Shown here: positions 2,310 to 7,891 of the stretch, piece by piece
Layout of the letters: each line of letters begins with the position of its first letter
Position numbering within the stretch: the first letter of the stretch is position 1
Assembly: GCA_021157815.1 (NCBI GenBank)
Contig: JAGGVT010000129.1
Location: forward strand, 1 to 7,891
Length of the DNA: 7,891 nucleotides
Reading direction: 5' to 3'
From: a bacterium
Lineage (GTDB): Bacteria; JAJVIF01; JAGGVT01
Notes under the pieces: generated by a model
Told to the model about the DNA's origin: nothing
Database searches by the model: none
Seen by the model: only the letters and a program-made list of their open reading frames with translations
Made by a program: the position numbers and the translations under genes

Positions 2310-2969
2310 CTATATCGCGATTCCGAATAATTCGTAGAATTTTGATACAAGCATTAACAAATTATCCTCGCCGATAGAAAATATCATAATCAGCAGAATT
2401 CCTATTCCGAAATATCGCATCTTGTAAAAAAGAATCGTGAAACGCCATGGAAGAAATCCCGCTACTATATTAGACCCATCCAAAGGCGGAATCGGTAAAA
2501 GATTGATAGTCGCCAGAAGCAGGTTTATAAAGACACCGTAAACCATAATATATCCGACAAGCATTGGTATCGTTTGCGGTATCCAGTCGAGTATAAAAAA
2601 CGCAAGTAAAAATAAAGCTGCTAGCGCGAGATTCATCATAGGCCCCATAATAGCAACAAGGGCCATGCATTTACGCGGATTCGAGAAATAGCGGAAATCA
2701 ACCATCACAGGTTTTGCCCATCCGATCGGGAGAGGCAAAATATTCAAAATAGTAAGTCCGAGAGTTATCAGAAAAACCAGCGAACCAAGCGGGTCAATAT
2801 GCTTTGCCGGATTGAGCGTAAGCCTTCCCATACGTTTGGCTGTTGGGTCGCCCAGTTTGTATGCCGTGTATCCATGCCCGAATTCATGAAGCACGATACT
2901 GAAGAACAGAATCAGAATCTGGCAGGACAATAATAAAACGATTATAAGAATACCGTTTATTTCCATCAC
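2310..2969 (-). CDS. Site-2 protease family membrane metalloprotease (peptidase M50)
   Basis: This 219-residue integral membrane protein is a short form of the M50/site-2 protease family, without the PDZ domain of RseP. The zinc-binding motif is HEFGH, with His28, Glu29 and His32 in the first membrane segment. The third ligand comes from LPIPPLDGSNIV, with Asp164. Other family marks are 'NPAKHIDPLGS' (53-63), GWAKPV (83-88) and GPMMNL (109-114). About five or six hydrophobic segments are visible (roughly 5-27, 62-80, 104-128, 135-158 and 186-200). The family cleaves substrates inside the membrane; the substrate here is unknown. The stop of the fusion gene lies within GTGATG. Starting at GTG (2969) overlaps that gene by 4 bases, and starting at the adjacent ATG (2966) by 1. 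An AAGGA sequence serves either (6 or 9 bases upstream). Translation is almost certainly coupled to the upstream gene. Confidence 0.93.
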   Translation of the reverse strand: MMEINGILIIVLLLSCQILILFFSIVLHEFGHGYTAYKLGDPTAKRMGRLTLNPAKHIDPLGSLVFLITLGLTILNILPLPIGWAKPVMVDFRYFSNPRKCMALVAIMGPMMNLALAALFLLAFFILDWIPQTIPMLVGYIMVYGVFINLLLATINLLPIPPLDGSNIVAGFLPWRFTILFYKMRYFGIGILLIMIFSIGEDNLLMLVSKFYELFGIAI

Positions 2970-5605
2970 GAATTATCCTTTTCCAGTTTCAACAGGTATT
3001 CGTGAGTGAATTCAAGTTCTTTATCATGCCCCGAAAGGGTGCCTTCCATTTTACGGAAGTAACATTCCTTGAACGCGATTTTAAAAAGCCGTGATGGTTT
3101 ATGCCCCAACTTGATTAAGTCCTTTCCGTTTATTTCGAGAGAGATATTCCCAATATTCTCCAGATAATTTTCCAGAAGCCGCATAAGATTATTCTCTTTT
3201 TGCCAAAGCGCGGCAAGATAAATCTGTGCTTCTATTTTAAGCGCTGAAAATAGCGGCACATATTTTCGAATTTCATCCACCGACAATCCTTCAATCTGCT
3301 GTCGAATATCCTCCGCTTTATTTGCGGTGGATTTCAATATAATTTCAGATGAATGGTCAAAATTCATATTCTCAATGATTTTGAACAGATTCTTTGAGCC
3401 AAGGTTCATAAAAAGAGCTGGAAGATACGCGCGCCATTTTGAACCATTATCATCGGATGCGTATTTCTTCCACGCGCTGTTTATCAAATCGACCGGTTCA
3501 AACATGCTATGGTCAATTTTAATCGACGAGTTTACACGCTTCCATAATCCAATTTCATCACCTCGAAGGATGATTGACGCAGTATTTTTCTCTTTTAAAA
3601 TCAGCTCAATTTCATGCCGAATCCTCTCTGGAGCGATCTTTTCAAGAATTTTGTCATCAAGTGATAGTTTAGCCAAACGAATGGTTTCATCATCCATTTT
3701 GAAACCGAGCCTGCCCTCAAATCGAATAGCTCGAAATATGCGAGTTGGGTCATCAACAAAACTCAGAGGATGAAGAGTTCGAATACGTTTGTCCTCAAGA
3801 TCATTCGCGCTTCTGAAGTAATCTATCAATTCACCGAAACCAACCAAATTAAGGCGAATCGCAAGCGCGTTGATTGTGAAATCACGGCGATATAAATCAT
3901 CGCGCAATCCAGACGGCGCGACATCGGGAAGAGCACCAGGACGCGGATAGTATTCACATCTGCACATGGCAATATCGATATGGGTTTCGCTGGTTATATG
4001 AACTTTCGCGGTTGAGAATCGCTCATTGAAATCAACTTTCGCGCCAAATTCCTCTCCAAATTCCCTGGCAAAATCGTGTCCTGAGCCATCGATTAGAAAA
4101 TCAATATCAAGATTTTCACGGTCTAGAATGAGATCACGGATAATTCCACCAACAAGAAAAACCTGATATCCAAGTCGATCCGCAATCTTTCCGGCGATTT
4201 CAATATATTTCTTGTACGCAGGAGCGAGCTTTTCAAGATTTAATAGTATCTTTCTTTCCTCTTCGGACATTATATGATGGCTCACCCCCTCTTGCACTCG
4301 CCTGTGAATAGCTTTGAGAATATCGCTTCGAGTAACAATTCCCTGGAGCTTTCCACCGAACATAACAGGAAGCCGTCCCACATTTCGCTCAATGACCAGT
4401 TTCTGCATTTCATCAAGCGATGTGCCTTCATTTACAGTGATAACCTCGCGTGTCATGATTGATTTAACCGGAGCATGGCCAAGTTTGTGCGATATCGCTT
4501 TGTCAACATCCTTCCTTGAAATCAATCCTGCGATATCAGCATCCTCTTCGTTAAGAACAACCAATCCGGAATGACCTTTTTGTATCATCAAATCATACGC
4601 GCTTTTGATAGCGTTATCCGGATCGATAGTTAAAACAGGCGATGACATGATATCCGCTGCGGTGATTCCCGGGGGAACCGTTTCACGAATTATATCGATA
4701 AGATTTGGAAGAATCTTGCTTATTTTACTGTTTGGGACAGTCGCGCTTGCAGCAGCATGATGTCCTCCTCCTCCGAAATGTCCCAGTATCTCAGATACAT
4801 TGACACTTGGAAGACGGCTTCTGCCAACTATATACAGTTTGTCTTTCATTTCCACAACTGCAAAGATGACATCAGCGTTTTCCATTTCACGAACCTTGTG
4901 TGTTAAAAGAGCAAGTTCTTTCACCCAGATATTCATTTTCGCGGTTGTGAATGTAATTATACGGCCATTCAGATTCATTTCACGCACATTCAGAAGCATT
5001 TTCTGAAGAAGCTGGCGCTGTTCAGGTTCAAGCTGGTGTGATAGAAAACGGGTTACAATATCGAGCCTTGCGCCTCGTTTGAGCATTTCCGCTACTATTT
5101 CAAGGTCGTACGGTGTGGTTGATGAAAATGACAAACTGCCTGTGTCCTCATATATGCCAAGCGTAAAAAGAGTTGCTTCTATTGGATCGATGGAAACCTG
5201 TTCAGATAAAAGATGATTCATAACTACTGTCGTTGCAGCGCCGTATTTAGCCTGATGAATCTCATCTATTTCAAAATCTTTTTCCTCTAAAAGGTGATGG
5301 TCGTAAATGATAACTTTTACATCATCACGGTCAATTATCTCACAAATCTTTTTTCCAATGCGACGCCGTTGGCCGGCATCCGTGATTATGACAGTTTTAA
5401 CATTTGAGAAATCGACATCGTTAATATTGGCGAAGTTGAATACATCTCCATACAGCGAGAGGAATTCGCGAACATTCTCATCAGTGCCAGCTACAAGTAC
5501 GGGTTGAGCTTTTGGATAAAGCTTGTTGCATGCCGCCATTGACGCGAGTGAATCAAAATCAGTGCCCGCATGTGATGCGATTATTATTTCCGGTTTGTCT
5601 GTCAT
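2966..5605 (-). CDS. DHH phosphoesterase-CBS-CBS-tRNA nucleotidyltransferase / poly(A) polymerase fusion
   Basis: The 879-residue protein has three modules. Residues 5-300 form a DHH/DHHA1 phosphoesterase. Its motifs are SHAGTDFD (His12, Asp16, Asp18), Asp76 in IITDAG, the DHH triad at 102-104, Asp154 in EDTGS, and the DHHA1 loop GGGGHHAAASA (278-288). All metal ligands are kept, so this half is probably an active phosphodiesterase or exonuclease, not a relic. Residues 315-435 are two CBS domains, usually nucleotide-sensing. Residues 460-879 are a class II nucleotidyltransferase. It has LVGGIIRD (484-491), the catalytic pair Asp500/Asp502 in LDIDF, RRDFTINALA (573-582), DPTRIFRAIRF (619-629), PERIRHE (659-665) and a C-terminal 'NGKDLIKLGHKPSRLFK' (826-842) typical of bacterial CCA-adding enzymes and poly(A) polymerases. 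The same arrangement is known, including, from memory, the large A-adding enzyme of Aquifex. Whether this one adds CCA, only A, or poly(A) cannot be read from the motifs. The ATG at 5605 has no strong Shine-Dalgarno sequence. It is the first gene of a four-gene operon. Confidence 0.95.
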   Translation of the reverse strand: MTDKPEIIIASHAGTDFDSLASMAACNKLYPKAQPVLVAGTDENVREFLSLYGDVFNFANINDVDFSNVKTVIITDAGQRRRIGKKICEIIDRDDVKVIIYDHHLLEEKDFEIDEIHQAKYGAATTVVMNHLLSEQVSIDPIEATLFTLGIYEDTGSLSFSSTTPYDLEIVAEMLKRGARLDIVTRFLSHQLEPEQRQLLQKMLLNVREMNLNGRIITFTTAKMNIWVKELALLTHKVREMENADVIFAVVEMKDKLYIVGRSRLPSVNVSEILGHFGGGGHHAAASATVPNSKISKILPNLIDIIRETVPPGITAADIMSSPVLTIDPDNAIKSAYDLMIQKGHSGLVVLNEEDADIAGLISRKDVDKAISHKLGHAPVKSIMTREVITVNEGTSLDEMQKLVIERNVGRLPVMFGGKLQGIVTRSDILKAIHRRVQEGVSHHIMSEEERKILLNLEKLAPAYKKYIEIAGKIADRLGYQVFLVGGIIRDLILDRENLDIDFLIDGSGHDFAREFGEEFGAKVDFNERFSTAKVHITSETHIDIAMCRCEYYPRPGALPDVAPSGLRDDLYRRDFTINALAIRLNLVGFGELIDYFRSANDLEDKRIRTLHPLSFVDDPTRIFRAIRFEGRLGFKMDDETIRLAKLSLDDKILEKIAPERIRHEIELILKEKNTASIILRGDEIGLWKRVNSSIKIDHSMFEPVDLINSAWKKYASDDNGSKWRAYLPALFMNLGSKNLFKIIENMNFDHSSEIILKSTANKAEDIRQQIEGLSVDEIRKYVPLFSALKIEAQIYLAALWQKENNLMRLLENYLENIGNISLEINGKDLIKLGHKPSRLFKIAFKECYFRKMEGTLSGHDKELEFTHEYLLKLEKDNS

Positions 5606-5845: not shown

Positions 5846-6895
5846 ATGAGTATAGGATTTTTAAAAAATTATCGACAGATAGCTGTTGTGGCTCTGGGTG
5901 GCAACGCGATTTTGCGCAAGGGGCAATCGTCAGACCCGGATACACAGCGTGGCAATATCGCTAAAGCGTTAAAAAGTCTCGAACCGCTGCTTGACAAGTA
6001 TGATTCGTTTGCTTTGACACATGGAAACGGCCCGCAGGTCGGCAATGATTTAATCCGCGCGCATACCGCGAAACAGATGAAAAATCTTTCGAGAATCAGC
6101 CTTTCTGATTGCGGCGCTAACACTCAGGGACGAATCGGGCATTGGATTATTACCGAGATGAAAAGGAATCACGCTTTTTCAAAACGAAGGATTGCAAATA
6201 TCATCACTCATGTGTATGTCAACAAGAATAAATTCGCTCCTGATGAATATACGAAATATGTCGGCCCATGGCTTGGCGCGGGTGAGATAAACTGGAATAA
6301 AGCAAAGAATCGCGAGATTATTTACAAAGCGCCTGATGGCCAGAATGAACTCGTTAGACGAGTTGTGCCATCACCGCTGCCATATAAAATCGAAGAACTT
6401 GAAATAATAAACAATCTCATCATGCATGGCGTGATTACAATATGTTGTGGCGGTGGCGGGATTCCCGTTTATGACCCAACATTCAAGGGCAACATTGATG
6501 GTTCAGACCCATCATCAATCGAATGTTTCATTCCGTCTGATGTCGTGATTGACAAAGACAGGGCCAGCGCTGTTCTCGCTGCGAATATTCTTAAAATGAA
6601 TCCTGACTGCGATGTTCACCTGTTGATACTTACCGATGTTAAGGGGTTATACAAGACATCAGAACTGCGCGACGAGGATTTCATCAGTGAAATGAGCCTT
6701 AATGAAATGGAAGGCTTCATTAAAAGCAATGATCTTGATAAAGGAAGCATCAAACCCAAACTTGAGGCGATAATGCATTTCCTTAAATCAGGCGGCAAAT
6801 ATGCCTATCTTGGCAGCCTTGAGGATTTCGATTCAAATGGCTCCGGAACACGTTTTTTTTCGATAGACCAAATTAAGCTTTTCAGAAAGGCATAA
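5846..6895 (+). CDS. arcC: Carbamate kinase
   Basis: The enzyme makes ATP and carbamate from carbamoyl phosphate and ADP, the energy-yielding last step of arginine or other ureido catabolism, in the cytoplasm. Family motifs are all present: VVALGGNAI (14-22), LTHGNGPQVGN (57-67), the 'THVYVNKNKF' and YVGPW region (121-142), RRVVPSPLPY (171-180), CGGGGIPV (201-208), VIDKDRASAVLA (234-245), LTDVKGLY (262-269), KGSIKPKLEA (299-308) and YLGSLED (321-327). I chose the ATG at 5846, preceded by GGTGAG, which places the first conserved strand at residue 12. An in-frame TTG at 5735 would add 37 hydrophobic, unconserved residues with no ribosome binding site. At 349 residues it is longer than the usual 310 or so. 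Part of the excess is an insertion of about 14 residues after GGGGIPV (about 210-230, 'FKGNIDGSDPSSIE'), just before the catalytic VIDKD; part may be in the 140-170 region. The transcarbamylase gene follows after 46 bases and is probably cotranscribed. Confidence 0.92.
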   Translation: MSIGFLKNYRQIAVVALGGNAILRKGQSSDPDTQRGNIAKALKSLEPLLDKYDSFALTHGNGPQVGNDLIRAHTAKQMKNLSRISLSDCGANTQGRIGHWIITEMKRNHAFSKRRIANIITHVYVNKNKFAPDEYTKYVGPWLGAGEINWNKAKNREIIYKAPDGQNELVRRVVPSPLPYKIEELEIINNLIMHGVITICCGGGGIPVYDPTFKGNIDGSDPSSIECFIPSDVVIDKDRASAVLAANILKMNPDCDVHLLILTDVKGLYKTSELRDEDFISEMSLNEMEGFIKSNDLDKGSIKPKLEAIMHFLKSGGKYAYLGSLEDFDSNGSGTRFFSIDQIKLFRKA

Positions 6896-6908
6896 AATCT
6901 ATATAATT

Positions 6909-6935
6909 CCTCCGGCTTATTCACATCTTCGGAGG
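6909..6935 (+). promoter_or_regulatory. Hairpin sequestering the transcarbamylase ribosome binding site
   Basis: CCTCCG (6909-6914) pairs perfectly with CGGAGG (6930-6935) around a 15-base loop, with one possible extra G-U pair inside. The 3' arm is the Shine-Dalgarno sequence of the next gene, whose ATG is at 6942. There is no T-run after the stem, so it is not a terminator. The predicted effect is reduced or conditional translation of the transcarbamylase relative to carbamate kinase, perhaps opened by a protein, small RNA or ribosome traffic. This is an inference from pairing alone. Confidence 0.5.
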
Positions 6936-6941
6936 TGTAAC

Positions 6942-7891
6942 ATGCATTTTTTAGGTCTGAATGATTTCACACAGGATCAACTTCTCAAAGTCATTAATCA
7001 ATCAATTGGAATTAAAGCGATAATGAGGGAGTATCCGAATGAGTATGAGGCCGGTTATGGGCAAATCCTCAAAGGAAAAACCATGCTGATGCTTTTTGAA
7101 AAACCCTCATTGAGAACAAGAGTTAGTTTCGAGGTTGGCATGACTCAATTTGGCGGCCATGCGATTTTTTACGACATCGCGACATCCCCGTTGGGTAAAA
7201 AAGAGATTATTTCTGATTTCTCGCAGGTTACATCAAGATATGTGGATATCATAATGGCGCGGCTGTTCAAACATTCAGATATTAAGGAACTTGCTGATTA
7301 TGCCTCTGTTCCCGTTATCAATGCGCTGACCGATTTCTCGCACCCATGCCAGGTACTTTGCGACCTTATGACAATCAAGGAAAAAAAAGGAAAATTGGAA
7401 GGCTTGAAACTGGCGTACATGGGCGATTCAAACAACAACATGACACATTCACTCCTGTACGGCTGCTCGATAATGGGAATGAACATAAGTGTCGGATGTC
7501 CTGAGGGTGTTGATTTCGAGCCGCAACAAGATGTTGTTGACTGGGCAAAAGAAAAAGGGACCAGTTCAGGTTCTGAAATTGTGGTAACTCACGACCCAAT
7601 TGAAGCTGTTAAAAACGCTGATATCGTTTATACTGATTCCTGGATGAGCTATCATATCGACCCATCAGAAGAAGAGGCGAGAAAAAAGATATTTATGCCT
7701 TATCAGGTGAATCAGGATTTAATGAGCAATGCTTCAAAGGAAGCTTTATTCATGAACTGCCTTCCAGCTATGAGAGGCTGCGAGCAGACCGACGAGGTTA
7801 TTGACGGGCCTCAATCGATTGTTTTTGATCAGGCTGAGAATCGCCTTCATGTTCAAAAGGGCATTGTTCTGGAATTACTTGGAATGAGCCA
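6942..7891 (+). CDS. Ornithine carbamoyltransferase family protein, divergent second-substrate site (3' end outside window)
   Basis: Translation from ATG 6942, with an ideal GGAGG six bases upstream, runs open for 316 codons to the window edge. Family members have about 300-340 residues, so little is missing. The N-terminal carbamoyl-phosphate domain has KPSLRTRVSFE (Ser56, Arg58, Thr59, Arg60), MARLFKH (Arg107) and HPCQ (134-137). The second domain has GDSNNNMTHS (161-170), TDSWMSYHI (231-239), PYQVN (253-257) and MNCLPAMRG (271-279), then 'TDEVIDGPQSIVFDQAENRLH' (283-303). This is clearly the OTCase branch and not aspartate transcarbamylase. Two places differ from typical OTCase. The ornithine-binding D-x-W-x-SMG loop reads DSWMSYH (232-238), keeping Asp and Ser but losing Met-Gly. 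HCLP reads NCLP (Asn272, with the Cys kept). Being next to carbamate kinase suggests the catabolic direction: phosphorolysis of citrulline or another carbamoylated amine. I therefore leave the symbol open; ornithine remains possible. Confidence 0.88.
   Translation, partial: MHFLGLNDFTQDQLLKVINQSIGIKAIMREYPNEYEAGYGQILKGKTMLMLFEKPSLRTRVSFEVGMTQFGGHAIFYDIATSPLGKKEIISDFSQVTSRYVDIIMARLFKHSDIKELADYASVPVINALTDFSHPCQVLCDLMTIKEKKGKLEGLKLAYMGDSNNNMTHSLLYGCSIMGMNISVGCPEGVDFEPQQDVVDWAKEKGTSSGSEIVVTHDPIEAVKNADIVYTDSWMSYHIDPSEEEARKKIFMPYQVNQDLMSNASKEALFMNCLPAMRGCEQTDEVIDGPQSIVFDQAENRLHVQKGIVLELLGMS

Follow-up and report, generated by a model that had tools for sequence, protein, structure and literature searches.

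Genes and motifs at the locus

The window, the whole 7,891-nucleotide stretch of DNA analysed, ends in two genes read on the forward strand, the second of which encodes an ornithine transcarbamylase (OTCase) with unusual motifs. The features that bear on its interpretation are as follows.

5846–6895 (+), divergent carbamate kinase (TIGR00746, PDB matches, neighbour in two same-class genomes)
6942–7889 (+), OTCase of the SYH/NCLP (Giardia-type) subfamily, 316 aa (TIGR00658, PF02729, PF00185, AlphaFold model, 3grf match)
7095–7121 (+), carbamoyl-phosphate site FEKPSLRTR, residues 52–60 (sequence; role of K54 from PMC3282769)
7341–7352 (+), HPCQ, residues 134–137, carbamoyl contacts (sequence; invariant in the alignment)
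7422–7445 (+), GDSNNNMT, residues 161–168, with the Asn that binds ornithine and a single inserted residue common to the subfamily (alignment)
7635–7658 (+), DSWMSYHI, residues 232–239, in place of the DxWxSMG substrate loop, with D232 and S236 retained (sequence, alignment)
7755–7766 (+), NCLP, residues 272–275, in place of HCLP (sequence, alignment)

The reading frame at 6942–7889 (+) is open at the contig end, with only the extreme C-terminus missing. Its product exceeds the cut-offs of two general OTCase models (TIGR00658, 372 bits vs 281; PRK00779, 378 bits vs 306), matches both Pfam domains, PF02729 and PF00185, and is the single OTCase detected in the source genome, a 3.2 Mb draft in 221 contigs that is 91% complete and carries a bacterial 16S gene fragment. 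The transcarbamylase motifs SxRT (within SLRTR, residues 56–60) and HPxQ are present, and the DxxxSMG and HxLP features of OTCases are both absent. The original prediction had described this same combination, an intact carbamoyl-phosphate site with both substrate-side motifs replaced, and the sequence bears it out, as do the motifs shared with relatives.

The carbamate kinase gene lies upstream, with 46 bases between its end and the OTCase start. The listed reading frame opens at TTG 5735, and the start is probably the ATG at 5846. The protein scores 218 bits with TIGR00746, under the cut-off of 358, and matches PDB carbamate kinases with an E-value of 4e-38. Over the OTCase ribosome-binding site, a CCTCCG...CGGAGG inverted repeat (6909–6936, +) could couple OTCase translation to carbamate kinase; its folding z is -1.8 (10 of 200 shuffled sequences fold equally well), and the two same-class relatives show no evident counterpart. 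Rfam gave no match anywhere in the window. On the opposite strand, 2966–5605 (-) encodes an 879-aa fusion of DHH/DHHA1, two CBS domains and a poly(A) polymerase/CCA-transferase head domain.

Distribution and phylogenetic placement of the motif pair

Two further genomes of the same class carry DSWMSYHI together with NCLPAMRG in proteins 58–61% identical to the window OTCase, and seven Lokiarchaeota loci (L002–L004, L006, L008, L009 and L011; 52–59% identity) carry DSWMSYGI with NCLPA. The suspicion that NCLPAMRG-type proteins occur in uncultured microbes was thus well founded, in its exact form for the same-class genomes and as NCLPA for Lokiarchaeota. The OTCase of Giardia lamblia (PDB 3grf) has DSWMSYHI and NCLPATRG. 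As the motif pair is common to same-class genomes, Lokiarchaeota and Giardia, it is neither a sequencing error nor a product of chance. The aligned homologues comprise SMG/HCLP (83), SYG/NCLP (7), SYH/NCLP (4) and SYH/HCLP (3) proteins, the last from two Woesearchaeota loci and archaeon AR15. Among these proteins, only those with an SY[H/G] loop have Asn in place of the His of HCLP. The alignment also shows that the subfamily shares single-residue insertions after the loop and in GDxxNNxT (GDSNNNMT vs GDG-NNV in other OTCases).

A maximum-likelihood tree of 78 transcarbamylases, built with short searches and with SH-aLRT supports in place of bootstraps, united the window OTCase, its same-class relatives, Giardia and the Lokiarchaeota in one group (SH-aLRT 96), which the Woesearchaeota and AR15 proteins join next (SH-aLRT 99). 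The same groups were recovered at 88 and 92 after three motif regions were dropped, and the grouping therefore rests on more than the motifs. The distinct subfamily that had been proposed from the paired replacement is thus supported by both trees, which assign the window OTCase to an SY[H/G]-NCLP group.

Within this subfamily the Giardia enzyme is a close characterised counterpart, among the top matches in both sequence and structure. It shares DSWMSYHI, NCLPAxRG, GDSxNNVT, the fold and a catabolic pathway with carbamate kinase, by which protists such as Giardia gain ATP from arginine; it differs in being eukaryotic and only about 41–45% identical to the window OTCase. For one same-class relative (L117), 3grf is the best PDB match, at 304 bits vs 269 for Pyrococcus furiosus. 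Papers citing Galkin et al. 2009 describe the Giardia lamblia OTCase as kinetically characterised and ornithine-targeting. Since this characterised enzyme departs from the canonical motifs in the identical way, strict HxLP and DxxxSMG motifs do not define all OTCases. A 2015 review names "DxxxSYH and NCLP" as the motifs of two Trichomonas OTCases, which it takes to be catabolic (PMC4581275); the likeness of these eukaryotic Trichomonas vaginalis enzymes to the window OTCase is drawn from that published motif description. The Lokiarchaeota OTCases share NCLPA, the SY loop and the extra GDxxNN residue, but have SYG for SYH and, in most loci, a following ornithine aminotransferase gene. Pyrococcus furiosus OTCase (1a1s) is the best PDB match of the window OTCase in sequence (46–47% identity) as well as structure, but it has SMG and HCLP, and the tree places it apart from the SY clade.

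SYH/NCLP therefore marks a clade of OTCases already described in Giardia and Trichomonas and gives no evidence of a new substrate; the window OTCase is a new bacterial member of this known subfamily. This corrects an inference that can be expected to return, in which SYH/NCLP is taken as the sign of a new substrate. The known prokaryotic relatives of the metamonad enzyme, for which the literature consulted mentions only a Lokiarchaeum sequence, are also extended by a bacterial class: Novak et al. 2016 recovered a eukaryotic OTCase group that contains all metamonads and within which Lokiarchaeum takes a position lacking support. The finding has a modest bearing on the origin of the protist arginine-fermentation enzyme.

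The probable ornithine pocket

In OTCases three side chains bind the ornithine alpha-amine, those of an Asn and of the Asp and Ser in DxxxSMG, and the Met of SMG reaches the ornithine carboxylate via its backbone only (PMC10765591). The OTCase-specific lysine, K54 in the window protein, pairs with the ornithine carboxylate (PMC3282769), a contact made by the FxKxSxRT Lys through water (PMC10765591). HxLP side chains make no substrate contact, which is instead provided by main-chain oxygens (PMC4581275). The original prediction had the SMG loop contacting ornithine and the HCLP loop closing the active site. The first role agrees with these descriptions, the Met acting by its backbone; the second does not, as the SMG loop is the closing part and HCLP supplies main-chain carbonyls (PMC4581275, PMC10765591).

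K54, D232, S236 and the Asn of GDxxNN are retained in 14/14 subfamily members in the alignment. The replacements thus fall at positions where the side chain has the least to do with ornithine binding. An AlphaFold model of the window OTCase (pLDDT 93.9) superposes on 1a1s with a Z-score of 44.5 and on 3grf with a Z-score of 42.7 (rmsd 1.2 A over 291 residues). Because putrescine enzymes also reach Z 41–42 against the model, the fold match does not discriminate substrate. By analogy with Giardia and from the gene context, the window OTCase is most likely specific for ornithine.

Pathway context and alternative roles

Carbamate kinase adjoins OTCase in three genomes of the class, including the two same-class relatives, and in six Lokiarchaeota loci. 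In most Lokiarchaeota loci the order is OTCase, carbamate kinase and then, on the opposite strand, ornithine aminotransferase (in L002, TIGR01885 537 bits, above cut-off). In the source genome and three same-class genomes, neither argG (best 21.7 bits vs cut-off 268) nor argH was found over cut-off; the genomes searched for pathway genes are drafts, 82–99% complete, and the argH-like matches in G000, G001 and G003 are purB (486–500 bits). With argG and argH undetected, a role in arginine biosynthesis is unlikely.

We therefore favor, with a probability of roughly 85%, an ornithine-specific, catabolic OTCase of the SY[H/G]-NCLP subfamily previously described in Giardia and Trichomonas. The window OTCase would convert citrulline and Pi to ornithine and carbamoyl phosphate, and the kinase encoded upstream would convert carbamoyl phosphate to ATP, ammonia and CO2. 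A shifted direction preference had been among the proposed consequences of the paired replacement. The carbamate kinase neighbour, the undetected argG and argH and the Giardia/Trichomonas precedent make a catabolic direction plausible; no observation ties this direction to the motif pair itself.

Counting against this catabolic reading, searches of the source and related genomes with PF02274 and at the TIGR01078 cut-off returned no canonical arginine deiminase, whereas Giardia has a true one. The modest identity to the Giardia enzyme and the carbamate kinase score under its family cut-off also weigh against it. The top TIGR01078 match in the source genome scores just 19 bits and falls on a protein resembling dimethylarginine dimethylaminohydrolase (DDAH), encoded outside the window:

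Contig C217, L111, 299–1063 (-), DDAH-like hydrolase (PDB and NCBIfam matches)

In the PDB it most closely matches dimethylarginine dimethylaminohydrolases (E 2e-36), its NCBIfam score is 197 bits vs a cut-off of 340, and it is the sole arginine-deiminase/DDAH-type enzyme detected in the source genome. The gene adjoins acyl-CoA carboxylase-type genes and was not found in the two same-class genomes sharing the OTCase. This hydrolase is a possible citrulline source for the OTCase–carbamate kinase pair. That it is the main one, with methylarginines from protein turnover rather than arginine supplying the citrulline, seems unlikely; if true, this bacterium would have a methylarginine-fuelled ATP pathway.

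An ordinary anabolic OTCase of arginine biosynthesis, with incidental variant motifs, would fit with the enzyme being the only OTCase detected in the genome and with its scores above the general OTCase cut-offs. We consider this quite improbable, as argG and argH were not over cut-off in the source and three same-class genomes and the neighbouring gene is carbamate kinase, not argD; for many SMG/HCLP homologues, the gene just upstream belongs to the acetylornithine/ornithine-aminotransferase family.

The original prediction had instead suggested a subfamily that may use another amine (a diamine, a modified ornithine or a ureido acid). In this reading the loop changes would set a new specificity, for putrescine, diaminopropionate, or an acetylated or otherwise modified ornithine. 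The replacement of Met-Gly by Tyr-His in the specificity loop speaks for it, as does the loop of putrescine transcarbamylase, which also has a Tyr important for specificity (PMC3282769). The putrescine enzyme of Enterococcus faecalis (4a8h) resembles the window protein in fold, in sequence (39–41% identity) and in having a carbamate kinase partner in fermentation, but differs in its Gln in place of the OTCase Lys, its loop signature, its C-terminal helix and its agmatine deiminase context. On each of these points the window protein departs from putrescine transcarbamylases: K54 is retained where they have Gln, the loop is SYHI and lacks the (Y/W)(G/W)(V/L/I)x signature, and about 42 residues follow NCLP, as in OTCases, without the C-terminal helix extension of about 20 residues (PMC3282769). 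TIGR04384 gives 317 bits vs a cut-off of 500. Agmatine deiminase was not found in the source genome, which speaks against a putrescine route. Nor does the window protein show the marks of diaminopropionate enzymes, an HDLP motif and Thr/Ser in place of Asp (PMC4581275).

More generally, every side chain with a known role in holding ornithine is retained, and the Giardia OTCase, which shares SYH/NCLP and the same loop, is described as ornithine-targeting (PMC10765591). An enzyme proven to act on ornithine with these same residues, which the original prediction had taken to be incompatible with its proposal, essentially exists in the Giardia OTCase, because the citing papers present that enzyme as both kinetically characterised and ornithine-targeting. 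A different amine as substrate is accordingly very improbable. N-acetylornithine transcarbamylase was rejected at 179 bits vs a cut-off of 288 (PRK04523), and the acetylornithine, YgeW and aspartate transcarbamylases all score far under their cut-offs.

Other SMG-loop variants were observed among the homologues. Two OTCase-like proteins, L138 (196–1266, -) and L076 (7929–8912, +), have DTWxDMEFF where DxWxSMG is expected, one of them with HDMP or HCLP at the second motif. They pair in the tree with a support of 99, and L138 scores under the general OTCase cut-offs; an altered specificity may be more likely in this group than in the window OTCase. Eleven Nitrososphaerota loci (L040, L046, L053, L054, L056, L058, L060, L061, L065, L066 and L069) fail the DxWxSMG pattern. 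They are probably the SIH/HCLP class of the motif tally (n = 11), a further natural variant of the SMG loop.
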